Source of the DNA: Bacillus sp. BA3
Lineage (GTDB): Bacteria; Bacillota; Bacilli; Bacillales; DSM-1321
Assembly (NCBI GenBank): GCA_002835675.1
Contig: PIZR01000003.1
Coordinates: 62,001 to 126,000, forward strand
Direction: 5' to 3'
Length of the DNA stretch: 64,000 nt
Made by a program: the position numbers and the translations under genes. A model generated the notes under the pieces. That model was not told the origin of the DNA and searched no databases. It worked only from the letters and a program-made list of their open reading frames with translations. How positions within the stretch are numbered: position 1 is the stretch's first letter; the number at the start of each line of letters is the position of its first letter. Positions 46,985-58,260 of the stretch are shown piece by piece.

Positions 46985-48458
46985 TCTTACTTTCCTGCCT
47001 GTTTTATGGCCGCTTTTCACAGGCATCCTTCTCATTTTCTTTGCCAAAAAAATCAAGCTGCAAAGAGGGATATCCCTTACTTCCTCTCTTATCGGGATTG
47101 TGATTTCCCTATATCTAGTATTTACGGTCCATACTCAAGGGATCCTGACTTTAGGTGTCGGCAGCTGGGATGCGCCATTCGGGATCGTGATCGTCGCAGA
47201 TATTCTTTCTTCGCTGCTCGTACTGACCACGAATGTCATTGGATTTGCAATACTGCTTTACTCGTTTTACTCCATAGGGGAAGAACGTGAAAGACATTAT
47301 TATTATCCTGTATTTCAATTTTTACTGATTGGAGTGAACGGTGCCTTCCTAACGGGGGATCTTTTCAATCTATTCGTATTTTTCGAAGTCATGCTGATGG
47401 CTTCCTACGTGCTGCTGGTACTGGGAGGTACGAAAATCCAGCTGAGGGAATCATTGAAGTATATCATCGTCAATGTACTATCCTCTTCCTTTTTCGTCAT
47501 TATGGTGGCGTATCTTTATTCAGTTCTAGGCACATTGAACATGGCTGACATCAGCCAGAGGATAGCGGAAGTCAACCAGCCTGGTATCATCTCGGTGATA
47601 GCGATTGGGTTTCTGATCGTATTCGGTTTGAAGGGAGCCATTTTCCCGCTCTTCCAATGGCTTCCAGGTTCCTATTATGCTCCGCCCATTCCAGTGATGG
47701 CCCTTTTCGGGGCATTGCTGACAAAGGTCGGGATCTATTCCATTTTCAGGACCTATACACTCATGTTTTATCATGACCAGGATTTCACCCATACTTTCCT
47801 TGCGATACTTGCTATCTTGACCATCATCATCGGTGTCATTGGTGCGGTAGCCTATTGGGATGTAAAAAAAATCATCATTTACAATATCATCATCGCAGTC
47901 GGGGTTATCCTATTCGGCATCTCCGTAATGAATGAACAGGCTTTATCGGGATCCATTCTATATATCATTCATGACATGCTGATCAAGGCTGCACTCTTCC
48001 TTCTGGTTGGCATCATGATCAAAATCAGCGGATCGGATGATCTACGGAACATGGGCGGCCTGATCAAGCAATACCCGGCCGTCGCATGGACCTTCTTCAT
48101 AGCTGCCATATCATTGGCGGGAATTCCGCCGTTCAGCGGTTTTGCCGGCAAGCTCCTGATTCTTCAAGGAGCAGCAGAAAATGGGGCCTACTTAGGAATG
48201 GCCGTTGTCTTGCTTTCGAGCTTGATGGTCCTATATTCCGTCATGAAAATATTCATGAATGGCTTTTGGGGAACTCCAAAAGCTGATTATGCCTTAACTA
48301 ATAAAACGGTAAATAAAATGCTGGTTCCTGCCGTACTCCTTGTCATCATTTCCGTTTTATTCGGAGTAGGAACAGAATCAATATACCCATTCATAACGCA
48401 AGCTGTAGATTCATTAATGAATCCCGAAATCTATAACAAAGCGGTTTTAAAGGAGTAG
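46977..48458 (+). CDS. mrpD: Na+/H+ antiporter subunit MrpD
   Basis: 493 residues, 14 membrane helices, homologous to complex I NuoN/Nuo[18 protein letters not shown] carries the conserved Glu near residue 137. [22 protein letters not shown] has the conserved Lys near 219, and [15 protein letters not shown] a second Lys. Overlaps mrpC by 8 bases. Confidence 0.96.
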
Positions 48459-48464
48459 TGCCTG

Positions 48465-48941
48465 ATGTCATTCCAAATTTTACTGAATGTGTTCCTTGCG
48501 GTTATCTGGATGTTTTTGAAAAATGAGTTTAACGGGAGCACTTTTATCATCGGATATATATTGGGGCTCGGCATCATGTTCGTCTTCCGTCATTTTTTCA
48601 ATGATCGTTTTTACTTGAAAAGGGTGAATGCCGTCTTTATATTGCTGCTCATATTCGCAAGGGAACTCATACTTTCCAACATTAGCGTCCTTAAGGCCGT
48701 GCTTAAACCGAACCTGGATATGAGACCCGGCATATTCGCATTTGAAACCGTGCTGACCAAGGATTGGGAAATTACGATACTATCGAATCTAATTACCCTG
48801 ACACCAGGAACACTTGTCGTTGAAGTATCGGAAGATAATCGGATTCTTTATATCCACGCGATGGATATTGCCGACAAGGTCGAGGCCGTGGACAGCATTA
48901 AAAATACATTTGAAAAAGCGATTATGGAGGTGAGCAAATAA
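48465..48941 (+). CDS. mrpE: Na+/H+ antiporter subunit MrpE
   Basis: 158 residues. Two or three N-terminal membrane helices (WMFLKNEFNGSTFIIGYILG) are followed by a soluble domain, with the family motif NLITLTPGTLVVEVSED near residue 107. Six bases after mrpD. Confidence 0.95.
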   Translation: MSFQILLNVFLAVIWMFLKNEFNGSTFIIGYILGLGIMFVFRHFFNDRFYLKRVNAVFILLLIFARELILSNISVLKAVLKPNLDMRPGIFAFETVLTKDWEITILSNLITLTPGTLVVEVSEDNRILYIHAMDIADKVEAVDSIKNTFEKAIMEVSK

Positions 48942-49225
48942 TGTTCGATCTAATGCTTAAAATCGCGCTGCTAGGTGTTTCGCTTTCCATGATTGGATTC
49001 TTATACCGTTTAATCAAAGGGCCTTCCGTACCGGATCGGGTCATCGCACTCGATGCAATGGGAATCAATCTTATCGCAATCGTTGCACTTGCCTCCATTG
49101 TCATGGATACAAGCGCATATCTGGAAGCCATTCTTCTGCTCGGAATCCTATCTTTCATCGGAACGGTCGCTTTCGCCAAATTCCTTGAGAAAGGGGAGAT
49201 AATCGAAGATGACCGCAATCGCTGA
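48941..49225 (+). CDS. mrpF: Na+/H+ antiporter subunit MrpF
   Basis: 94 residues, three membrane helices. KGPSVPDRVIALDAMGINLI is the family signature. It starts on the last base of the mrpE stop (TAATG). MrpF of B. subtilis has also been linked to bile-salt (cholate) efflux. Confidence 0.95.
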   Translation: MFDLMLKIALLGVSLSMIGFLYRLIKGPSVPDRVIALDAMGINLIAIVALASIVMDTSAYLEAILLLGILSFIGTVAFAKFLEKGEIIEDDRNR

Positions 49226-49547
49226 AATCCTATCGGCCCTATTCCTATTAATGGGAGTCTTTCTCTTTTTAGTCTCGGCTTTCGGCATCATCCGGCTGCC
49301 CGACGTCTATACAAGAAATCACGCTGCCTCAAAAAGCTCGACACTTGGAATCATGTTCATCCTGATCGGCACCTTGTTATATTTTTATTATAAACATAGC
49401 CATTTCGATTTCAGGGTCGTGCTCGCAATCATCTTTATCTTCATGACCAGCCCTGTTGCCGGACATTTAATCATGCGCTCGGCTTACCATACTGGCGTAA
49501 AAATGTGGGATCGGAGTGTACAGGATGATTTAAAGAAAACCCGGTGA
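49209..49547 (+). CDS. mrpG: Na+/H+ antiporter subunit MrpG
   Basis: 112 residues, three membrane helices. FGIIRLPDVYTRNHAASKSSTLG is the MnhG/PhaG signature, and TSPVAGHLIMRSAY follows. Overlaps mrpF by 17 bases. Slightly shorter at the C-terminus than the B. subtilis protein. Last gene of the operon; terminator 13 bases behind. Confidence 0.95.
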   Translation: MTAIAEILSALFLLMGVFLFLVSAFGIIRLPDVYTRNHAASKSSTLGIMFILIGTLLYFYYKHSHFDFRVVLAIIFIFMTSPVAGHLIMRSAYHTGVKMWDRSVQDDLKKTR

Positions 49548-49560
49548 TTCCTGCCATTGC

Positions 49561-49595
49561 AAAAGAGCTGCCCTGATTACAGGAGCAGCTCTTTT
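49561..49595. terminator. Terminator of the mrp operon
   Basis: AAAAGAGCTGC CCTGATTACAGG AGCAGCTCTTTT, strong stem with symmetrical tracts. Also serves the MOSC gene from the other strand. Confidence 0.92.
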
Positions 49596-49600
49596 CTGCC

Positions 49601-50320
49601 TCAATCCTTTAAAAATACCTCATCGCCCACTCTGATTTCACCTGTTTGCATGACCGAGGCATATACGCCAAAATGATTTTTCCTTTCCTTGACCACAGTT
49701 TTCAAAAGTGATGGATCTCTCTGGGAATCGCTTGGATCGACAGTTATGATCATACAGCGTTCACAATGCCTTTTGATCTCCAATTCCACTTCATTTCCGA
49801 TTAGAATCCTTTTTCCGAACCATTTCTCTTCTACAAAGGGCGTTTTGTTCACTAGAGATAGCACTAAATTTTGCCTGAATCTCCTGCCATCCAGTTCTTT
49901 TCCCCAAAGTTTTGTCAATTCGCCAATCGAGGCATCACTGACAAGCAGGATGTTTTCTTCTTCAATCGCTCCTAACGGAATATGTGCAGGGTGATAAACA
50001 ACGGGTGCTGCCTCCTGTTTCAACAATCGGTCCATTTCCTCCTGAAAGGCTCCCTCTCCCCATGTCAGCACGTTTCCTGAAGGAGTCTTCACTTTGATTT
50101 CCGGATATTGGCCAAGGGTTTCCTCACCAGAAAAAACAGCTTGATAACGGACCATTTCCGGGACTTGGGTTATCGTCAGGAACTTCCCATTTTTATCTTT
50201 AAAGGCATGGCTGCGATCTCCATATAGTCCATAGTCCATCACCTTCGTTTTCTGTACCTGTTCACCAGTGAATGATTTTACAGGATGACGGGTGATTTCT
50301 TGTATATGACCCACCAGCAT
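49601..50320 (-). CDS. MOSC domain protein (YcbX-like, molybdenum-dependent reductase type)
   Basis: 239 residues from the ATG at 50320 (AAGAGG 7 bases upstream). An N-terminal MOSC beta-barrel (HIQEITRHPVKSFTGEQVQK, GLYGDRSHAF) is joined to a MOSC domain with the conserved Cys of the cofactor site in KRHCERCMIITVDPSD. Relatives (YcbX, mARC) reduce N-hydroxylated compounds using molybdenum cofactor. The gene faces mrpG. Confidence 0.85.
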   Translation of the reverse strand: MLVGHIQEITRHPVKSFTGEQVQKTKVMDYGLYGDRSHAFKDKNGKFLTITQVPEMVRYQAVFSGEETLGQYPEIKVKTPSGNVLTWGEGAFQEEMDRLLKQEAAPVVYHPAHIPLGAIEEENILLVSDASIGELTKLWGKELDGRRFRQNLVLSLVNKTPFVEEKWFGKRILIGNEVELEIKRHCERCMIITVDPSDSQRDPSLLKTVVKERKNHFGVYASVMQTGEIRVGDEVFLKD

Positions 50321-50418
50321 AAAAAAACCTCTTTTCATACAATAGTCTACTGCCATCTTATACTTAAACCGGACACTGTAGAATCATTGCGTCCCTTTAT
50401 TGAAATCGTTCTTTTGAT

Positions 50419-50817
50419 TCACTTTGGCTTTGGTAAGTCGATAACCGCCAATGTACAGCGTGAAATGCAGATAAGATGATCCTCTTCATCACGGATTTTC
50501 ACGTCCCACACCATCGTCGTCTTCCCGCGATGGATGATGTTCCCTTCTGCGGTAACAACACCGGAACGGACGCCCCTAACATGATTTGCATTGATTTCAA
50601 GGCCGACGACAGCTTGTTTTGTACTATCTACCAGCATCATTCCTCCAAAGCTTGCAACGGATTCCGCAAGGGCAACGGACGCTCCCCCATGCAATAAACC
50701 ATACGGCTGCCTAGTCCGTTCATCCACAGGCATCGTCGCAATGACTTTCCCCTCGCCGACTTCTTTCATTTCAATCCCAAGCGTGCCTATCAATGACTTT
50801 TCAATATTTCTCTCCAT
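50419..50817 (-). CDS. yuxO: YuxO-like hotdog-fold thioesterase (PaaI/MenI type)
   Basis: 132 residues from the ATG at 50817 (GGGGGT upstream); the longer frame has no RBS. Hotdog fold with PYGLLHGGASVALAESVASFGG, where the Glu is the expected catalytic residue, and GLEINANHVRGVRSGVV. Candidate for 1,4-dihydroxy-2-naphthoyl-CoA hydrolysis in menaquinone synthesis, as suggested for YuxO/MenI; that part is inference. In B. subtilis yuxO also lies next to the mrp operon, beside comA; no comA is visible here. Confidence 0.85.
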   Translation of the reverse strand: MERNIEKSLIGTLGIEMKEVGEGKVIATMPVDERTRQPYGLLHGGASVALAESVASFGGMMLVDSTKQAVVGLEINANHVRGVRSGVVTAEGNIIHRGKTTMVWDVKIRDEEDHLICISRCTLAVIDLPKPK

Positions 50818-50883
50818 CCCATTACCCCCGACTCTCATGTTTTTTTTACCAAAAAATGAATCACTATTCATAATAGTATACAT

Positions 50884-50915
50884 AAAAAGGATGACCCAAG
50901 TCTATCAAGTCATCC
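50884..50915 (-). terminator. Terminator of the ribA-ribD-monooxygenase-HAD operon
   Basis: On the minus strand GGATGAC, 13 bases, GTCATCC, then TTTTTATG. It lies about 20 bases behind the HAD gene stop and separates that operon from yuxO. Confidence 0.75.
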
Positions 50916-50933
50916 GGCAATAATGTAAATGTA

Positions 50934-51497
50934 TTATTTGGAGAGGATTTCTTTTAATTCAAACCAGCTTGTCAGTCTCGGAATATCCAATTCCCTGTTA
51001 TAGGAGTTATCCATTGCATACACTTTCGTTGGAATATCCAATAAAGTTTCCAGCACCGCCGGTTTATCATCAAAATAATAATCCAATTCCAATTTGCGGA
51101 TCGTATCAATTTTTTCATGATCCTTCATCCCACAGTAAAAATGGTCATCCTTAACCGGAAAGCCGTTTTCGATCAGCCATTTTTTCGTCCGTTCACCATG
51201 CTCCGCTTTTCTGGCGGTAATGTAATAGATTTCATGGCCATCACGCTCAAGCTCCTGCAGCGTTTCCACTGCGCCCTCGAAGGCTGGACAGGATGAATAA
51301 TACACTTCATCGGCAAGGCTGTTCCACATTTTGCCCCCAGCCTCTTTATCAAGCCCGAAAGCTTCATGGATCTCCAACGTCTTTAAAGCTCTGAATTTCG
51401 TTAACTCTATATTCGTCTTAAGCTTTTCATTATAAAGATGGAACGCGAACTCCCTCAAGTTAATAAGGGTATCGTCAATATCAAAACCGAATTTCAT
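50934..51497 (-). CDS. HAD-superfamily 5'-nucleotidase-like phosphatase (YqfW/NT5C type)
   Basis: 187 residues from the ATG at 51497 (GGAG 8 bases upstream). HAD phosphatase motifs in order: FGFDIDDTLINLRE (nucleophile Asp), YYITARKAEHGERTKKWL (Thr and Lys region) and LDYYFDDKPAVLE (acidic pair). Most similar to the NT5C-like nucleotidase YqfW. It starts 15 bases behind the monooxygenase stop and is last in the four-gene unit, so it may remove the phosphate from the ribitylamino-pyrimidine phosphate that RibA plus RibD would produce; this is inference. Confidence 0.85.
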   Translation of the reverse strand: MKFGFDIDDTLINLREFAFHLYNEKLKTNIELTKFRALKTLEIHEAFGLDKEAGGKMWNSLADEVYYSSCPAFEGAVETLQELERDGHEIYYITARKAEHGERTKKWLIENGFPVKDDHFYCGMKDHEKIDTIRKLELDYYFDDKPAVLETLLDIPTKVYAMDNSYNRELDIPRLTSWFELKEILSK

Positions 51498-51512
51498 ATC
51501 CTTCACTCCTAT

Positions 51513-52610
51513 TCAAACATAAGCTGCGGCAAACTGTGATGCGAAGGACATTTCCTTGTCCACCTGAATGGCCTGTAATCTTTCAATCTCGGCTTTTCTT
51601 TTTGGCTCAGCCATTTTAAGTCCAAGGAAGCCAGTATCCCCCTGCAGGATGCAGCCAGAAATAAGCTCGGCCAATATATCGGCATCCTTCATGGCACAAT
51701 TGAGTCCGAACGCACCTGTAGGTGTCATCGTATGGGCTGCATCACCTAATAAAGCAACGCCATCCTTTGTCCACGTTTCACAATAGCTGCTGTAAACATC
51801 CAATAAAATGAAGTCCTGCCAAGAGCGGATATTTTCATACACAACCTTTTTTAATTCAGGGAAGGCAAAAAGCAAATCTTCTATGAACGGTTCAAAATGC
51901 TGTTTTCGCAAATGGGGATATGAACCATGTTCTATATTCCAGCCAATTTGGATGAAACCTCCAGCCTGGGTAAAGAGGGCAACCTGGGAGCCATTGACCA
52001 ATGCCATCTTGATCGAAGGCTTCCACCCCTCCGGAGCAGGAATTTTTGCCCACAGTAAATCATAGCCATGATTTTTAATCACTACTGGTATCTCCGCTTT
52101 TTTTCTAACGATGGAAAATCTGCCGTCCGCTCCGATTATTAATGAACTCTGCACTTCCAGGTCATTTCCGCCATTTCGAGCCTTGACTCCCGTAAAACGG
52201 CCCATTTCATCCTGTATCAAGTCAGTAACCTTCGTATTCATCATCAATTTAAAAGAGTCCAGCTTTATGGCTTGATTCAATATAGCTGTAAGCAGATGAT
52301 TTTGAGGGACATGTATCCCAACATGATCGACCGGCCATTCAGGGAAAATCCTTTTGAATATTTCGCCGTCATGCCAATATTCAATTTGTTCCATCCTTAG
52401 CAAGCCAAGTCTTTCCACACTCTCGAATAAACCGTGCTTTTTAAGAATGCCCTCTCCTTCATCGTTCAAGAACTCGCCCCTGAACTCCCTCGAAACCTCA
52501 GAATGCCTCTCAAGCAAAACGACTGAAATATCCTGCTTGGCCAATAGGTAAGCCAGCAGCGCTCCACCAGGACCTGATCCGACTATGCATACATCTGATT
52601 TAACCAACAT
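51513..52610 (-). CDS. FAD-dependent monooxygenase (UbiH/PHBH fold)
   Basis: 365 residues, group A flavoprotein hydroxylase. Rossmann dinucleotide loop VCIVGSGPGGALLAYLL at the N-terminus, middle motif IIGADGRFSIVRKKA near residue 160, and the FAD ribityl-binding GDAAHTMTPTGAFGLNCAMKD near residue 290. Such enzymes hydroxylate aromatic or heteroaromatic rings using NAD(P)H and oxygen. RBS AGGTGA. It follows ribD by 23 bases and precedes the HAD gene by 15. Its substrate may therefore be a pyrimidine or flavin-like compound made by the upstream genes; unproven. Confidence 0.88.
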   Translation of the reverse strand: MLVKSDVCIVGSGPGGALLAYLLAKQDISVVLLERHSEVSREFRGEFLNDEGEGILKKHGLFESVERLGLLRMEQIEYWHDGEIFKRIFPEWPVDHVGIHVPQNHLLTAILNQAIKLDSFKLMMNTKVTDLIQDEMGRFTGVKARNGGNDLEVQSSLIIGADGRFSIVRKKAEIPVVIKNHGYDLLWAKIPAPEGWKPSIKMALVNGSQVALFTQAGGFIQIGWNIEHGSYPHLRKQHFEPFIEDLLFAFPELKKVVYENIRSWQDFILLDVYSSYCETWTKDGVALLGDAAHTMTPTGAFGLNCAMKDADILAELISGCILQGDTGFLGLKMAEPKRKAEIERLQAIQVDKEMSFASQFAAAYV

Positions 52611-52633
52611 GCTTCTTCACCTGTTGTCTATTT

Positions 52634-53728
52634 TTATTTAGGATAAGCCGTGATGCGTATGTCCTCACCAAACGTTTCCACGCCAGAGAAGGAAACATCC
52701 ATCGCTTCATCCATCGTATCCACATTCATTCCAGTAAACGGTGTTAGTGAGTTTCTTCCGCCCAATAGTTTAGGGGCTATATAAATCAAGAATTTATCGA
52801 TGAGCCCTTCCCTAAGGAATGAGGCATTCACTTCGCTTCCGCCTTCCAGCAAGACATCCGTAATCCCCTTTTTATACAGCTCTTCCATCAAAGCCCTTAG
52901 ATTTAGTCCCGTCTCGTTTTTGGGGACGAAAATTAATTCGATCCCTCTTTCACGTAGAAGGTCCATTTTATCCGCAGGTGCATTTTCCTGCGTCACGATC
53001 AAGGTTTTCGCATCTGATGCTTGTACAACATTGGCATCCAAGGGAACCCGTAATTCACTGTCTAAAATGACTCGGATCGGATTTTTCCCTCCACCCGCCG
53101 GAAGTCTGGTCGTCAGTGATGGATCATCGGCCAACACAGTCCCGATACCAACTAGAATGGCATCCACCTCATCACGCAGCAAATGAACGGAGTGACGTGA
53201 TTCTTCTCCTGTTATCCATTTTGAATGACCTGTGTGGGTTGCAAGTTTTCCATCGAGCGTCATCGCATACTTCGATATGACAAATGGACGATTCGTCAGC
53301 ATATTGTGAATGAAACGCTCATTCAGCCTTTGAGCTTCCTTTTCAAGGACGCCAACTTCCACTTCAATGCCCGCATCCTTTATGATCGATATCCCCCTGC
53401 CGGCTACTTCCGGATTCGGATCTTGAGTAGCCACGACAACCCGCCGGACACCTGATTCTTTCACCAAATTTGCACAAGGAGGTGTCTTTCCATAATGGGA
53501 ACAAGGCTCAAGAGTCACATATAGCGTTGCACCTTCTGCATACTCACCCGCCATTTTGAAAGCATGTACTTCCGCATGCGGTTCACCCGCTTTACGGTGA
53601 ATCCCTGTCCCGGCTATTACACCGTCTTTGACTATGACTGCACCGACCACCGGATTCGGATTCGTCTTTCCTTTAGCACTGGCTGCCAAATCCAGTGCCA
53701 GCTTCATGTAATATTGATCATCATTCAT
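52634..53728 (-). CDS. ribD: Riboflavin biosynthesis deaminase/reductase RibD
   Basis: 364 residues from the ATG at 53728 (AAGGAGAG 9 bases upstream). The N-terminal deaminase domain has the zinc ligands in HAEVHAF and PCSHYGKTPPCANL. The C-terminal reductase domain carries RPFVISKYAMTLDGKLATHTG, DEVDAILVGIGTVLADDPSLT and DVLLEGGSEVNASFL. It turns the RibA product into 5-amino-6-ribitylaminouracil 5'-phosphate. Here it is 13 bases behind ribA and not in a ribDEAH cluster, so it may be a second copy serving another pathway. Confidence 0.93.
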   Translation of the reverse strand: MNDDQYYMKLALDLAASAKGKTNPNPVVGAVIVKDGVIAGTGIHRKAGEPHAEVHAFKMAGEYAEGATLYVTLEPCSHYGKTPPCANLVKESGVRRVVVATQDPNPEVAGRGISIIKDAGIEVEVGVLEKEAQRLNERFIHNMLTNRPFVISKYAMTLDGKLATHTGHSKWITGEESRHSVHLLRDEVDAILVGIGTVLADDPSLTTRLPAGGGKNPIRVILDSELRVPLDANVVQASDAKTLIVTQENAPADKMDLLRERGIELIFVPKNETGLNLRALMEELYKKGITDVLLEGGSEVNASFLREGLIDKFLIYIAPKLLGGRNSLTPFTGMNVDTMDEAMDVSFSGVETFGEDIRITAYPK

Positions 53729-53741
53729 ACTATAGCTCTCC

Positions 53742-54491
53742 TTATACAATCAAAGTTGGCTTCTTTTGAGGAATATGTCCAGACTTCTTAACTTTTGTAT
53801 CGAGATAGAAACTATTATCTTCCGTCAAACCGCCCCAAAGCGGAATATGGTCCTTTGCCGCAAGTCCATGCTTCATGAGGGCATCCAGCTTTTTGGGGTT
53901 GTTCGTGATTAAAGTCACAGGATCCTTGCGGAGTTCCCTCAACACGCGGATGGCTCCCTCGTAAGATCGCGTATCATCCTCGAATCCTAAAGCCTCATTC
54001 GCCTCGACCGTGTCATAACCTTCCTGCTGAAGCAAATAGGCAAGAGATTTTGAAAACAGGCCGATCCCTCTTCCTTCATGGTCCGCAAGGTAAAAAATGG
54101 CCCCGCACCCATGCTCGGCTATCATCTTCATAGATTGGTGGAGCTGGTAGCCGCAATCACAGCGTTTACTGCCGAAGATATCACCTGTGTGACAGATGCT
54201 ATGCATCCGGACAAGTGCATCCTCCGACTTTTTAAAGTCACCATATACCAATACGGAGGATTGCTGTCCGAAAGCGAGGTTGGCTTCCGAGAGCGAATCA
54301 AGCACCGCTTCCTTGCCATTATCCGCGCCATCAAGCTGTAGCCATGTATACCATTGGAAAACCGTTGAGAAATCTCCTTGCTCAACAGGCAGATTCACAG
54401 GCCCTACAAGGCATATATCAGCTTTTCCCGGTGTTTTTATGATATTCATTTTATCTATTAAAAGGTTTTTTGTTTCCTCGGTTATTTTCAT
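53742..54491 (-). CDS. ribA: GTP cyclohydrolase II (stand-alone RibA)
   Basis: 249 residues without the DHBP synthase domain that precedes it in the usual bifunctional Bacillus RibA (RibBA). Zinc-binding and catalytic residues are intact: RMHSICHTGDIFGSKRCDCG (three Cys), FYLADHEGRGIGLFSKSLAY (Asp, Arg) and DTRSYEGAIRVLREL, LITNNPKKLDALM. Opens the GTP ring to the diaminopyrimidinone ribosyl phosphate. AGGTGATG precedes the ATG. First gene of a four-gene operon with a strong SigA promoter. No FMN riboswitch can be recognised in the roughly 60-base leader. Confidence 0.92.
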   Translation of the reverse strand: MKITEETKNLLIDKMNIIKTPGKADICLVGPVNLPVEQGDFSTVFQWYTWLQLDGADNGKEAVLDSLSEANLAFGQQSSVLVYGDFKKSEDALVRMHSICHTGDIFGSKRCDCGYQLHQSMKMIAEHGCGAIFYLADHEGRGIGLFSKSLAYLLQQEGYDTVEANEALGFEDDTRSYEGAIRVLRELRKDPVTLITNNPKKLDALMKHGLAAKDHIPLWGGLTEDNSFYLDTKVKKSGHIPQKKPTLIV

Positions 54492-54547
54492 GTTAACATC
54501 ACCTATTTTTAATTTATAGTGTGCCTTCTCCTTACTTTAGGTAAGTA

Positions 54548-54576
54548 AGTATATTACTATACACTATACCTGTCAA
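54548..54576 (-). promoter_or_regulatory. Strong SigA promoter of the ribA operon with inverted repeat
   Basis: On the minus strand TTGACA (complement of 54571-54576), exactly 17 bp, TATACT (complement of 54548-54553). The spacer and -10 contain GTATA-GTAA-TATAC, an inverted repeat, preceded by a second TATAGT. A repressor bound there would block the promoter. The promoter match is nearly ideal; the operator is inference. Confidence 0.75.
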
Positions 54577-54744
54577 TGAAGCAGTTTACAAATAATAGTG
54601 TGTCTTTGATCATAATTTTCAAGAAGTTTTTTTGGAGAAGAAAGGTCATTCCAAACCGCTATCATATCGGCTGGCCTTTATACATATTTTAACGTATAAC
54701 GAAAACGTGTCTATAGACAGACTTAAGGAAAGGAAGAAAACCTT

Positions 54745-55140
54745 TTGGAGGATTTCCCTTATTTTTTATACGACCCTATCCTGTTTCCGCCTCACGCAGA
54801 AGCAATGAATATGAATCGGGAACGGGAAGGAACACTGCGTCCCTACTCGGCAACCAATCCGGATCTGCTAGTTAAATCGGCAAAGACCTCGCAATCCCTA
54901 ATGGTTGATGTAAAAAAAGTCATGGATACTTTAGCCACATCCAAACCCTTCTCGAACCGGTTGATGACTGCTGCCCAAGCATCACAAAAAAATGTCGTGA
55001 TCGATATGATCCGAAAGATAGGAATTAAGAACGAACCTGATATCACGTATAACCCCGATGGGATCCGTTTTGATTTCTATCCTAAAGCAGGGGAAGAAAA
55101 TTGCCATATCATCGTCAGCTTGAAATGGAGGGATGTATAA
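54745..55140 (+). CDS. Conserved hypothetical protein, 131 residues
   Basis: Start is TTG (54745) with GGAAAGGAAG about 9 bases upstream. The protein begins EDFPYFLYDPILFPPHAEA, has a helical middle part (QSLMVDVKKVMDTLATSKPF) and ends with a beta-rich part (GIRFDFYPKAGEENCHIIVS). Soluble, no signal peptide or known motif. I do not recognise the family. It lies alone between the divergent rib operon and the convergent pepA gene. Confidence 0.7.
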   Translation: MEDFPYFLYDPILFPPHAEAMNMNREREGTLRPYSATNPDLLVKSAKTSQSLMVDVKKVMDTLATSKPFSNRLMTAAQASQKNVVIDMIRKIGIKNEPDITYNPDGIRFDFYPKAGEENCHIIVSLKWRDV

Positions 55141-55163
55141 CGTTCGTCCAACACCTTTTTGGT

Positions 55164-55193
55164 AAAAAAACCGAAGCCTATTTTCGGCTTCGG
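55164..55193 (-). terminator. Terminator of pepA
   Basis: CCGAAGCC TATTTTC GGCTTCGG perfect 8-bp stem with seven T residues following on the minus strand. Confidence 0.9.
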
Positions 55194-55203
55194 ATATTTG
55201 GGT

Positions 55204-56709
55204 TCATCTTGTTTTCGTTTCAAAGGTTTCAACCAATAGTGCAAGCGTGCGTGCCATGACACCGGTAGCCCCCGCCGTGCACAATTCAGAGCTGCTCGAG
55301 GTGGTGGATGTTCCAGCAATATCCAGATGGACCCACGGAGTGTCTTCGGCAAATTCGCCGATGAAGGCCCCGCCCATGATCGCATGTCCTGCCCCTCCAG
55401 GTGAATTATTCAAATCCGCTATTTTACTGTTGCGTACCCGCTCTTTATCCTTTTCTGTAATCGGCAATCTCCAAATGGGCTCCCCGGCCTCCTCTGAGGC
55501 TTTGACCACTTGTTCATAGAATTCCGTGTCATTTGTCATTGCTCCCGTCATATCCATGCCCAGTGCGGTTATGACACCACCCGTTAAAGTGGCAACGTCA
55601 ATAAGATAGTCTGCACCATGATGTTTAGCGTATGTCATGGCATCCGCCAAAACCAGCCGGCCTTCCGCATCCGTATTCAATACCTCTATCGTCTTGCCGC
55701 TCATGGCAGTGATCACATCATCCGGCTTGAATGCATCACCGCTGATCATATTATCAGTGGAAGGAATGACAGCCACGACATTTTGGTCCGGTCCTAATTC
55801 GCCGATTATTTCCATTGCACCTAAAACAGCTGCCGCACCGCCCATATCCGTCTTCATTCCAACGATTCCGGCCTTCGTTTTCAATGAGTATCCACCCGTA
55901 TCGAATGTGATGCCTTTACCTACCAACCCGATAACATCCTTCCATTCATCCTTACCTTGATACTTCAGAACGATCATTTTCGGAGGCTCGACCGAACCTT
56001 GATTGACAGCAAGGAGTGCACCCATTCCCAACTTAAGCATATCCTCCTTCTCGAGGATCTCCACTTCAAAACCATAACGTTCACCCAAGGCAGATGAATA
56101 ATCCGCCAAATCCGTGGAAGTCAACAAATTGCCTGGCGTGTTGACCAATGTTCTCGCTGAATTTGTCGCCCTTCCGAAAATTCTCCCTACATGAAGCGCT
56201 GCACCGACCTCTTCTTGATCATATTCGCTGTATACCGTAATCGATTCAAGGCTTTTTTCGACCTGGTTCGATTTTTGCTTGTATCCGTCAAATTTATAGG
56301 AAGCAAGTTCGAAAGCCTCGGAACAAGCATGCGCTGCATCCAACGCATCCAGATTTTCAGTCGTGAATGTATCCAAAGCGATTGAAAGTGTCGTAATCTT
56401 GGATTCTTTTATCGTCTTACGAGCTTTTCCCAACGCTTCGCGGAGCGTTTCAAAGGATAGCTCCTTTTCCTTGCCCAACCCTACAAAAATCAATCTCTTT
56501 ATGCCTAATTTACCTAATGTATGTATTTTGACCACTGATTTTTTCCTGGAAGAGATTTCCCCCTCCTTCACTAACTCTGTTAGCTGGCCGTCCAATCGTT
56601 CATCTGCTTCTTTTCCTATGCCTGAGAATTTTACGGGTCTGTCAAATACGCCTAGAATCAGGCATTCGTCAATCAAATCTATATTCAAGGAATCTTTTAC
56701 TGTGAACAT
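55204..56709 (-). CDS. pepA: Leucyl aminopeptidase PepA (YuiE, M17 family)
   Basis: 501 residues, hexameric cytosolic metallo-aminopeptidase. The C-terminal catalytic domain carries [20 protein letters not shown] (metal-binding Lys and Asp), [13 protein letters not shown], and the family signature [13 protein letters not shown], with Arg in the active site. The N-terminal domain (about 1-170) is the variable regulatory/DNA-binding part. GGAGGAGG precedes the ATG. Position beside yuiD is as in B. subtilis yuiE. Confidence 0.95.
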
Positions 56710-56979
56710 TCTGCTACCTCCTCCATTCGATTACATTCATTATAACGAAATCTTCAAAAATTTTCGAATAAGGCCCGCAAATATAATAATAACAAGTGAT
56801 ATTGTTTAGAATGAGTGACTTTAGAGTAATAGTATAAGAAAGATCATATTTATACTTATACCAGCAGGGAATCGACAGGACTGAATGGAACTAATAATAA
56901 GGGCCTTATTCCGAGCAGGATGTAATTACCCATATATGGTTTTCATCTTTACTTATAACTAGAAAGAAGGCTGATACTC

Positions 56980-57462
56980 TTGGAATTATTACTCAACTTC
57001 CCTTTAATCGCAGCATTGATTGCCATTTTCTTTGCTCAATTCATTAAAGTGCCCATCCACTTCATAGCATTTCGTAAAGTGAACTGGTCACTCATTAACT
57101 CAACAGGCGGTATGCCAAGCTCCCACTCAGCGGCCGTGTCAGCCCTAACCGTAGCGGTAGGGATCGAAACCGGTATGAAATCCCCTGTATTTGCCGTTGC
57201 CGCGATTTTTGCAGTCATCACGATGTTCGATGCGACAGGTGTGAGACGGCAGGCAGGAGAACAGGCGGCCGTCTTGAACCAGCTCGTTACGGACTTCAAT
57301 ACATTTGTCGAGCAAGCAAAGAACTGGCAGAAAAAAGCAGATAAACAGAAACAGCAACAATTAAAGGAACTGTTGGGACATAAGCCAATCGAGGTATTTT
57401 TCGGAGCCTTGACCGGAGTATTCATTGCGCTGGCACTTCACTTTTTCATCTTTCAAGGGTAG
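56980..57462 (+). CDS. yuiD: YuiD, divergent PAP2 family membrane protein
   Basis: 160 residues, four membrane segments. NSTGGMPSSHSAAVSALTVAV near residue 40 resembles the phosphatase SH motif, and ATGVRRQAGEQAAVLN follows. The divergent PAP2 group keeps GMPSSHSA but lacks other acid-phosphatase residues, so activity is uncertain. Start TTG (56980) with AGAAGG 9 bases upstream. The stop TAG is followed 9 bases later by the next gene, so the two form an operon. Confidence 0.9.
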   Translation: MELLLNFPLIAALIAIFFAQFIKVPIHFIAFRKVNWSLINSTGGMPSSHSAAVSALTVAVGIETGMKSPVFAVAAIFAVITMFDATGVRRQAGEQAAVLNQLVTDFNTFVEQAKNWQKKADKQKQQQLKELLGHKPIEVFFGALTGVFIALALHFFIFQG

Positions 57463-57471
57463 GTGTTCAAT

Positions 57472-58260
57472 TTGAAAATAATATCTCTTTGCCCCAGCAA
57501 TACGGAACTCTGCACATATCTAGGGATTGAAGATCAGCTGATCGCCATCGATGACTACTCTGATTGGCCTGAAACCTTACAGCACCTTCCTAAGGTGGGG
57601 CCCGATTTATCCATTGATATCGATCATGTAGAATCACTAAAACCCGATTTGGTGTTGGCTTCACTAAGTGTACCGGGCATGGAAAAAAATATTGAGGGGC
57701 TAAAAGAACGGAACATCCCTCATATCATCTTCAACCCGCAATCACTTGAAGATATCGCAAAAGATTTACTGACCTTGGGCGATGCCATGAATCTTAAGGA
57801 AAAAGCAGAGGAACAGGCTGCCAAATTCCGTGATGCCATCCTTCAATACAAAAACGTCGCAGACAAAATCGAAACAAAGCCGTCGCTGTATTGGGAATGG
57901 TGGCCTAATCCCTTATTCAGCCCCGGGGGAGTTAATTGGTTATCCGAGATCAGCACGCTTGCGGGAGGATATAACCTTTTCGAAGATGTCGACATGGCAA
58001 GCATTCAAGTCACTTCCGAAGAGGTCCAAAAAAAGGATCCCGACCATATTTGCTTAGCTTGGGTCGGTGTCCCTTTACGAAAAGTAAACCCGGAGCTGGT
58101 CAAGAAACGGAAAGGGTGGACTGATATGAAGGCAGTCCGGAATAACAATATTCACATAATGGAAGAGCCTTTATTCTGCCGCCCCTCCCCGAGATTACTG
58201 GATGGGCTTTCCAAATTGGCAAAGACTCTGCATCCTGAAGCCTACAAAAGCATGGACTAA
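57472..58260 (+). CDS. BtuF-like cobalamin/metal-receptor fold protein without signal peptide
   Basis: About 262 residues. Periplasmic-binding-protein class III fold with one long backbone helix: IISLCPSNTELCTYLGIEDQ at the N-terminus, HLPKVGPDLSIDIDHVESLKPDLVLAS, then LYWEWWPNPLFSPGGVNWLSEI. It resembles BtuF and cobalamin-binding proteins. There is no signal sequence or lipobox, so it would stay in the cytoplasm, and no ABC permease lies nearby. TTG at 57472 is preferred for AGGTG 6 bases upstream; GTG at 57463 is the alternative. Two-gene unit with yuiD. Confidence 0.82.
   Translation: MKIISLCPSNTELCTYLGIEDQLIAIDDYSDWPETLQHLPKVGPDLSIDIDHVESLKPDLVLASLSVPGMEKNIEGLKERNIPHIIFNPQSLEDIAKDLLTLGDAMNLKEKAEEQAAKFRDAILQYKNVADKIETKPSLYWEWWPNPLFSPGGVNWLSEISTLAGGYNLFEDVDMASIQVTSEEVQKKDPDHICLAWVGVPLRKVNPELVKKRKGWTDMKAVRNNNIHIMEEPLFCRPSPRLLDGLSKLAKTLHPEAYKSMD

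Follow-up and report, generated by a model that had tools for sequence, protein, structure and literature searches.

Introduction

Riboflavin synthesis in Bacillus is the textbook example of a pathway under control of a flavin mononucleotide (FMN) riboswitch. The present analysis concerns a stretch of 64,000 nucleotides from the soil bacterium Bacillus sp. BA3 (contig PIZR01000003.1, positions 62,001 to 126,000; hereafter the window, which lies on contig C13 of the 5.59 Mb genome), and within it an operon encoding a GTP cyclohydrolase II (RibA2), RibD, a flavin adenine dinucleotide (FAD)-dependent monooxygenase (FMO) and a HAD phosphatase. The RibD and GTP cyclohydrolase II activities are those of the Bacillus-type ribDEAH operon, and classic RibD-x-RibBA-x operons occur in relatives (L158-L163). 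The window operon departs from that type in having a stand-alone RibA from a separate clade, no riboswitch, and a phosphatase and an FMO among its genes, while ribE, ribB and ribH lie on another contig. Riboflavin supply genes outside the main operon and under separate control are also described for Vibrio cholerae and Aeromonas salmonicida (PMC5312566, PMC10012899); in these, however, the genes are duplicates, whereas the window ribD is the only full-length copy.

The second described system that resembles this locus is the quinone regulon of Bacillus subtilis, controlled by CatR and YodB (MarR/DUF24, HxlR family) and including catDE and azoR1, with CatD presumably being a DoxX protein. The features in common are a repressor with Cys7, a promoter palindrome, a DoxX-dioxygenase pair and an FMN azoreductase, the likeness being one of regulator, layout and genes. 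Toxoflavin clusters also share a GTP cyclohydrolase II and a RibD-like enzyme with the window operon, which lacks their methyltransferase, FGE-like and WD40 partners (the latter two we take to be the ToxC/ToxD counterparts). Among open-access papers, none was found that ties ribA or ribD to a quinone or catechol regulon, and the presence of riboflavin genes in a quinone regulon may be new.

Here, gene content, a sole full-length RibD, a split pathway, a promoter and box layout common to two operons, and linkage to HxlR genes in relatives were observed. On the strength of these sequence comparisons, we consider it likely, if well short of established, that the early genes of housekeeping riboflavin synthesis have left the FMN-riboswitch operon and joined an electrophile/quinone-stress regulon, and the cell would then probably make more flavin on meeting toxic aromatic compounds. 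Both the committed step and the single full-length ribD would thus stand outside riboswitch control, with a site common to quinone-detoxification genes, linking vitamin supply to electrophile defence. This may matter for riboflavin overproduction and would give a regulatory and genomic context to a monooxygenase family.

Housekeeping riboflavin genes outside the riboswitch operon

Cys100, Cys111, Cys113 and an HEGRGIG stretch of RibA2 were invariant in 10/10 RibA2 sequences and aligned with 2bz0, which we take to be E. coli GTP cyclohydrolase II, the cysteines presumably being zinc ligands and HEGRGIG the catalytic region. As had been claimed in an earlier account made from the letters of the window alone (the sequence-only reading), the protein has the GTP cyclohydrolase II domain only, without the 3,4-dihydroxy-2-butanone-4-phosphate (DHBP) synthase half. 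The window RibD passed TIGR00326 with 407 bits against a cut-off of 156 and was the sole full-length RibD detected in the genome, no other gene clearing that cut-off in a profile listing that extended well below it. Four further RibD_C matches were open frames of 113-249 aa (the open reading frames (ORFs) were inspected for two), and on these grounds the idea of another complete riboflavin operon elsewhere in the genome was rejected.

The remainder of the pathway was found on contig C39, where an FMN riboswitch (119.7 bits) is followed by ribE (lumazine-binding protein, PF00677), ribB (DHBP synthase, PF00926, unfused and the single one in the genome) and ribH (lumazine synthase, PF00885), with neither ribA nor ribD. 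The full ribDEAH operon for which the sequence-only reading had proposed a search was thus not found, this riboswitch-ribE-ribB-ribH unit being all that was seen. Zero Rfam matches to any family, up to E = 1, were obtained within 48000-57500, and it was therefore determined that the window operon has no FMN riboswitch, in agreement with the earlier account.

As the sole full-length RibD is that of the window, and as ribE-ribB-ribH lie elsewhere without ribA or ribD, it was therefore concluded that the window operon is the housekeeping source of RibD and that its RibD is a housekeeping riboflavin enzyme. The window RibA is probably one as well, being one of two RibA sources: the genome contains two stand-alone RibA genes, in the window and on C1, which are 57% identical. 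The sequence-only reading had stated that its proposal of a special pathway would fall if no other ribA or ribD were present and ribE and ribH lay unlinked. That much was found for ribD, ribE and ribH, but not for ribA. The C1 gene (G000 C1:362447; L025:7358-8116) is an orphan that lacks both partner genes and a 9/10 box, next to what looks, we presume, like a rhamnose-type operon.

Distribution and history of the RibA2 module

RibA2, defined by a profile match at E <= 1e-85, was present in 112/397 genomes and 48/135 genera of the order, and the RibA2 or FMO region was covered in 82 of these 112 genomes and in 11 further ones. The 102 mapped RibA2 loci include four azapteridine-like ones; L049 (34% RibA) was left out of the map and L053 (a classic operon) was uncounted. 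In the loci of relatives, ORFs were called mechanically as the longest non-overlapping frames, and neighbours were labelled by the best match among several queries, with identity floors of 42% for FMO, 45% for HxlR and XRE-cupin, 33% for VOC and 50% for LLM proteins, the last four sets of queries being drawn from the first loci. RibD directly followed RibA in 62/102 mapped loci, and a HAD gene lay 1-3 genes after RibA in 43/102. In trees built with FastTree and rooted on one classic sequence, RibA2 formed one clade of 101 with one azapteridine-like outsider (support 0.925) and RibA2-linked RibD one clade of 65 with one outsider (support 0.982), while classic sequences did not group as a separate clade in the first rooting.

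Within the window's genus, the sole full-length RibD adjoined this RibA type in 30/35 genomes, 28 of which had no fused RibBA. The classic RibD-RibBA arrangement was seen in five of the 35 (G002, G003, G020, G024 and G028), and fused RibBA in seven, namely these five together with G019 and G032. The latter two represent an intermediate state, ribE-ribBA-ribH without ribD, and G038 represents another, a classic operon with a 138-aa ribD remnant. Exactly one RibA, stand-alone, was present in 13 genomes of the genus. Seven of these also carry the FMO and showed no GTP cyclohydrolase II beyond that of the operon; among them is G025, with a completeness of 87% and a split FMO match. A history may be proposed in which the ribA2-ribD-HAD operon took over first; the older ribD would have disappeared next, and RibBA would have lost its cyclohydrolase half at a later stage.

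A palindromic box shared with quinone genes

The CTTAC-N5-GTAAG palindrome behind the -10 element of the window promoter (Table 1) was absent from the sequence-only reading. Upstream of RibA2 it was found with at least 9/10 matching positions in 29/101 loci, compared with 11/554 background regions, and in perfect form in 10/101 compared with 1/554, the background being taken upstream of other frames within these loci. This count excludes the four azapteridine-like loci, and in L142 the operon start was set at RibA, leaving its more upstream box uncounted. An earlier count of 45 loci had given the box in 16, against 4/351 in the background. Among 60 loci gathered once the pattern had been chosen, a 9/10 box was seen in 14/60 against 8/281 (p 7e-7), and the box was still present in 7/52 (p 0.004) when genus g26 was removed from these later loci. 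It was conserved both with and without the FMO and recurred beside divergent YodB/CatR-type (HxlR) regulators: by linkage, at least 9/10 positions were matched in 14/22 HxlR-linked loci, 0/14 XRE-cupin-linked loci and 15/65 linked to neither. In the five HxlR intergenic regions examined first, the best score ranged from 8 to 10, and four of them had two distinct sites scoring at least 8. In genus g47, the promoters of FMO genes unlinked to RibA2 bear the box as well, in a like layout (3/3 loci read of 5).

An HxlR gene lay 1-2 genes upstream of RibA2 in 16/102 loci and 3-5 genes downstream in one; without the five loci that had supplied the queries, these figures were 12 and one among 97. In six loci (L040, L043, L054, L119, L137 and L144), a VOC dioxygenase accompanied HxlR and RibA2. 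The genome of the window itself has eight HxlR genes; the C40 copy shares 54-73% identity with RibA2-linked HxlRs, and the other seven at most 43%. Beside this C40 gene stand a divergent gene that we take to be nitric-oxide-synthase-like and, after HxlR, a presumed thioredoxin-reductase-like gene (L081:114-1277 and 1905-2837 for these two neighbours). The C40 protein scored 106 bits with PF01638, had YodB as its best solved match and possesses Cys7; quinone sensing by CatR and YodB relies on Cys7 and Cys6 (PMC6798810, PMC6943732).

The same box occurs at a second operon of this genome, on C2, which encodes a DoxX protein, a VOC protein and an azoreductase. Its promoter, TTGACA-17-TATAAT, is followed by two bases and then CTTACATAAAGTAAC (box 9/10), so that -10 and box are as far apart as in the window. 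As its third gene the operon has an FMN-dependent NADH-azoreductase (NF010075, 305 bits against a cut-off of 188), and the VOC protein, whose NCBIfam scores fall below the cut-off, may cleave catechols. In B. subtilis, catDE is repressed by both CatR and YodB from a promoter with two CatR boxes (PMC6212828).

XRE-cupin proteins would constitute a second type of regulator for the RibA2 module. They were encountered near RibA2 in L031, L033, L039, L046, L048, L088, L098, L102, L104, L107, L110, L115, L126 and L136, often together with VOC or LigB-type dioxygenases, DoxX or an MhqD-like esterase. LigB-type dioxygenases, DoxX and MhqD-like esterases were mostly located in these XRE-cupin loci; the MhqD, LigB-type and VOC proteins score below the NCBIfam curated cut-offs for the named enzymes.

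Proposed regulation and the points against it

If the stress-regulon reading is right, RibA2 would open GTP, RibD would deaminate and reduce, and the HAD enzyme would dephosphorylate to give 5-amino-6-ribitylaminouracil, from which the riboswitch-controlled ribE-ribB-ribH genes on C39 would complete the vitamin. A YodB/CatR-type (HxlR) repressor, most likely that of C40, would occupy the palindrome at the start site until a quinone or a comparable electrophile reaches its N-terminal cysteine and causes its release. The window operon and the DoxX-dioxygenase-FMN-azoreductase operon would then rise jointly, and it is proposed that, through this joint induction with an operon bearing the same box, flavin supply would rise in step with the flavoenzymes requiring it. 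Early riboflavin intermediates would then be supplied independently of the riboswitch. The FMO would hydroxylate the aromatic stressor or, less likely, a pyrimidine of the pathway. GTP cyclohydrolase II and DHBP synthase are reportedly rate-limiting in an industrial B. subtilis strain, and a rate-limiting cyclohydrolase would explain why some genomes have RibA2 alone, without RibD, in such loci.

Several observations weigh against this explanation. No 9/10 box was seen in 72/101 RibA2 loci, and the link to the box was therefore taken to hold for a subset; 14 loci have an XRE-cupin regulator instead. A genome-wide search with an 11-letter box was at chance (4 matches against 9 for the reversed control), and the unlinked FMO genes of genus g79 showed no 9/10 box in five loci read of 7. 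The C40 HxlR gene is unlinked to the window operon, and its own upstream site reaches only 8/10, which is also the best score of 43/554 background regions and is no evidence. The pattern was picked by visual inspection of the first loci, which also contribute to the count. In addition, loci of one genus are not independent, and sampling was uneven: genus g26 supplied nine HxlR-FMO loci, and many of the loci with the box belong to the window's genus. As a second RibA exists in the genome, the window RibA may not be the sole source of this activity. Finally, many RibA2-RibD-HAD operons lack the FMO, which is therefore not needed for the core.

The monooxygenase and rival explanations

The FMO has a PHBH-type fold with the FAD motifs GxGxxG, DG and GD of a group A hydroxylase. 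Profile searching of the 397 genomes returned 34 ortholog-level matches (at least 530 bits; next 270) from ten genera, a tally of 13 genera taking in weak matches. The FMO was adjacent to RibA2 in 22/34 genomes and not in 12 (genera g79 and g47); all ten genera have RibA2 (hypergeometric p 1.7e-5), and eight have the two adjacent. Five arrangements were observed: RibA-RibD-FMO-HAD, RibA-RibD-HAD-FMO, FMO-RibA-RibD-HAD, RibA-FMO and VOC-FMO-RibA.

Such recurrence bears on the alternative that survives best, although it is an unlikely one, namely that the window holds ordinary, constitutive housekeeping riboflavin genes with the FMO as an accidental passenger and the palindrome as an unrelated or weak site. 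RibA and RibD are indeed housekeeping enzymes here, most RibA2 loci lack the box as given above, and sister species whose upstream synteny is the same, such as L058, L059, L063 and L069, have no FMO. A passenger would not, however, be expected beside RibA2 in five arrangements and in eight of ten FMO genera, nor would a constitutive operon be expected to share with relatives, with and without the FMO, a box that recurs at the DoxX-VOC-AzoR operon of the same genome.

Somewhat more doubtful is the possibility that the FMO acts on a pyrimidine of the riboflavin pathway (2,5-diamino-6-ribosylamino-4(3H)-pyrimidinone 5'-phosphate (DARPP), 5-amino-6-ribitylaminouracil 5'-phosphate (ARPP) or 5-amino-6-ribitylaminouracil), either making a new metabolite or removing reactive overflow. 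This would explain why RibA2 is present in all 34 FMO genomes and why RibA2-FMO pairs occur without RibD (L022, L031, L100 and L126), and the nearest solved relative, the B. niacini flavin monooxygenase (8uiu, 8urc, 8urd), has 2,6-dihydroxypyridine bound in 8urd. That relative is only 31% identical to the window FMO, so that the substrate may differ, and the fold relatives act on phenols, kynurenine and pyridines, judging by structure titles. Furthermore, the 12 FMOs unlinked to RibA2, the presence of the FMO near only 18/102 mapped RibA2 loci, and the grouping of the FMO with a VOC dioxygenase and HxlR in L137 all speak against a pathway pyrimidine. For the stress-regulon reading, the FMO would be a hydroxylase under the same control, acting on phenolic or N-heteroaromatic compounds, and an oxidised product may be made by it.

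It is improbable, though conceivable, that the pyrimidine itself is the stress product, with 5-amino-6-ribitylaminouracil or an earlier ortho-diaminopyrimidine, made in excess by RibA2 together with RibD and the phosphatase, serving as a sacrificial trap by condensing with ortho-quinones and dicarbonyls, and the FMO oxidising phenols or the adducts; quinone detoxification would in that case be a second role of flavin chemistry.

Least credible of all, and largely refuted, is a toxoflavin-type (7-azapteridine) or similar antibiotic pathway: although toxoflavin clusters share the GTP cyclohydrolase II and RibD-like pair, ToxB/ToxE-like in the window operon (PMC5851621, the source of the gene list used for comparison), and the RibA2-type clades take in an azapteridine-like RibA (L086) as well as an azapteridine-like RibD (L041), no methyltransferase, FGE-like or WD40 gene lies in or beside the window operon, azapteridine-like RibAs are 42-52% identical to that of the window (the other 98 loci, 51% or more), and the window RibD is also the sole copy for the vitamin. 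The special pathway, toxoflavin-like or other, that the sequence-only reading had favoured is thus unsupported, toxoflavin-type loci being built differently. Four loci of azapteridine type in Bacillales genomes, distinct from the window operon, combine a RibA-like gene with FGE-sulfatase-like and WD40 genes (L041, L086, L097 and L134), with RibD in 2/4.

The HAD phosphatase

The HAD enzyme is NT5C-like, with the fold of 3bwv, a deoxyribonucleotidase-like protein, as the nearest, and a PDB sequence search gave no match at E <= 0.01. Dephosphorylation of ARPP in B. subtilis is attributed to YcsE, YwtE and YitU (PMC7062661), and the HAD enzyme is a candidate for this step in the window operon. 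The enzyme families named in the sequence-only reading, and its logic of RibA, RibD and a phosphatase leading towards 5-amino-6-ribitylaminouracil, were upheld.

Operon architecture and flanks

The operon lies wholly on the minus strand in the order ribA2, ribD, FMO, HAD (Table 1). The four genes, the promoter, the terminator and the intergenic gaps of 13, 23 and 15 bases (measured from the ATGs) had all been described beforehand, and the coordinates bear them out.

Table 1. Features of the window operon and its flanks (window positions)
Feature	Position	Strand	Details
SigA-type promoter, TTGACA-17-TATACT	54548..54576	-	11/12 consensus positions; kept in relatives
Palindromic operator-like box, CTTAC-N5-GTAAG	54531..54545	.	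minus strand CTTACCTAAAGTAAG; 2 bases past -10
ribA2	53742..54491	-	stand-alone GTP cyclohydrolase II, 249 aa; long N-terminal part; without DHBP synthase half
ribD	52634..53728	-	bifunctional deaminase/reductase; ATG 53728, frame open from TTG 53749
FMO	51513..52610	-	group A-type FAD monooxygenase (FAD_binding_3), 365 aa
HAD	50934..51497	-	NT5C-like phosphatase, candidate ARPP phosphatase; ATG 51497, frame open from GTG 51506
Intrinsic-terminator-like hairpin	50889..50915	-	11 pairs, then TTTTT
Hotdog thioesterase	50419-50883		flank of operon
MOSC protein	49601-50356		flank of operon
Small ORF	54745-55140		flank of operon; zero Pfam matches
M17 aminopeptidase	55204-56709		flank of operon

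Consensus scans overall were about at chance, both for promoter-like sites (12, with 8.8 +/- 2.7 expected) and for terminators (3, with 3.9 +/- 2.2 expected). The TTGACA-17-TATACT promoter was kept in 11/11 Peribacillus-type loci (L011-L020, L023). Comparison of gene order across relatives, proposed earlier as a check, was favourable: the four-gene order was present in 12/13 loci returned for the FMO, namely these 11 and Kurthia L021, the exception being L022, which has RibA-FMO only. The FMO is in three pieces in L023 (6001-7093), and its match is in two pieces in G025 (C1:531215-532230), each a broken gene or an assembly error. Two other places returned by the genome-wide palindrome search (L071, L073) lie inside unrelated ORFs.

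The flanks of the 11 Peribacillus-type contigs largely match those of the window, and on the basis of these flanks and the common four genes the organism is regarded as one of the Peribacillus simplex kind. The M17 aminopeptidase and thioesterase genes also hold their position in relatives without the FMO (L058, L059 and L069).

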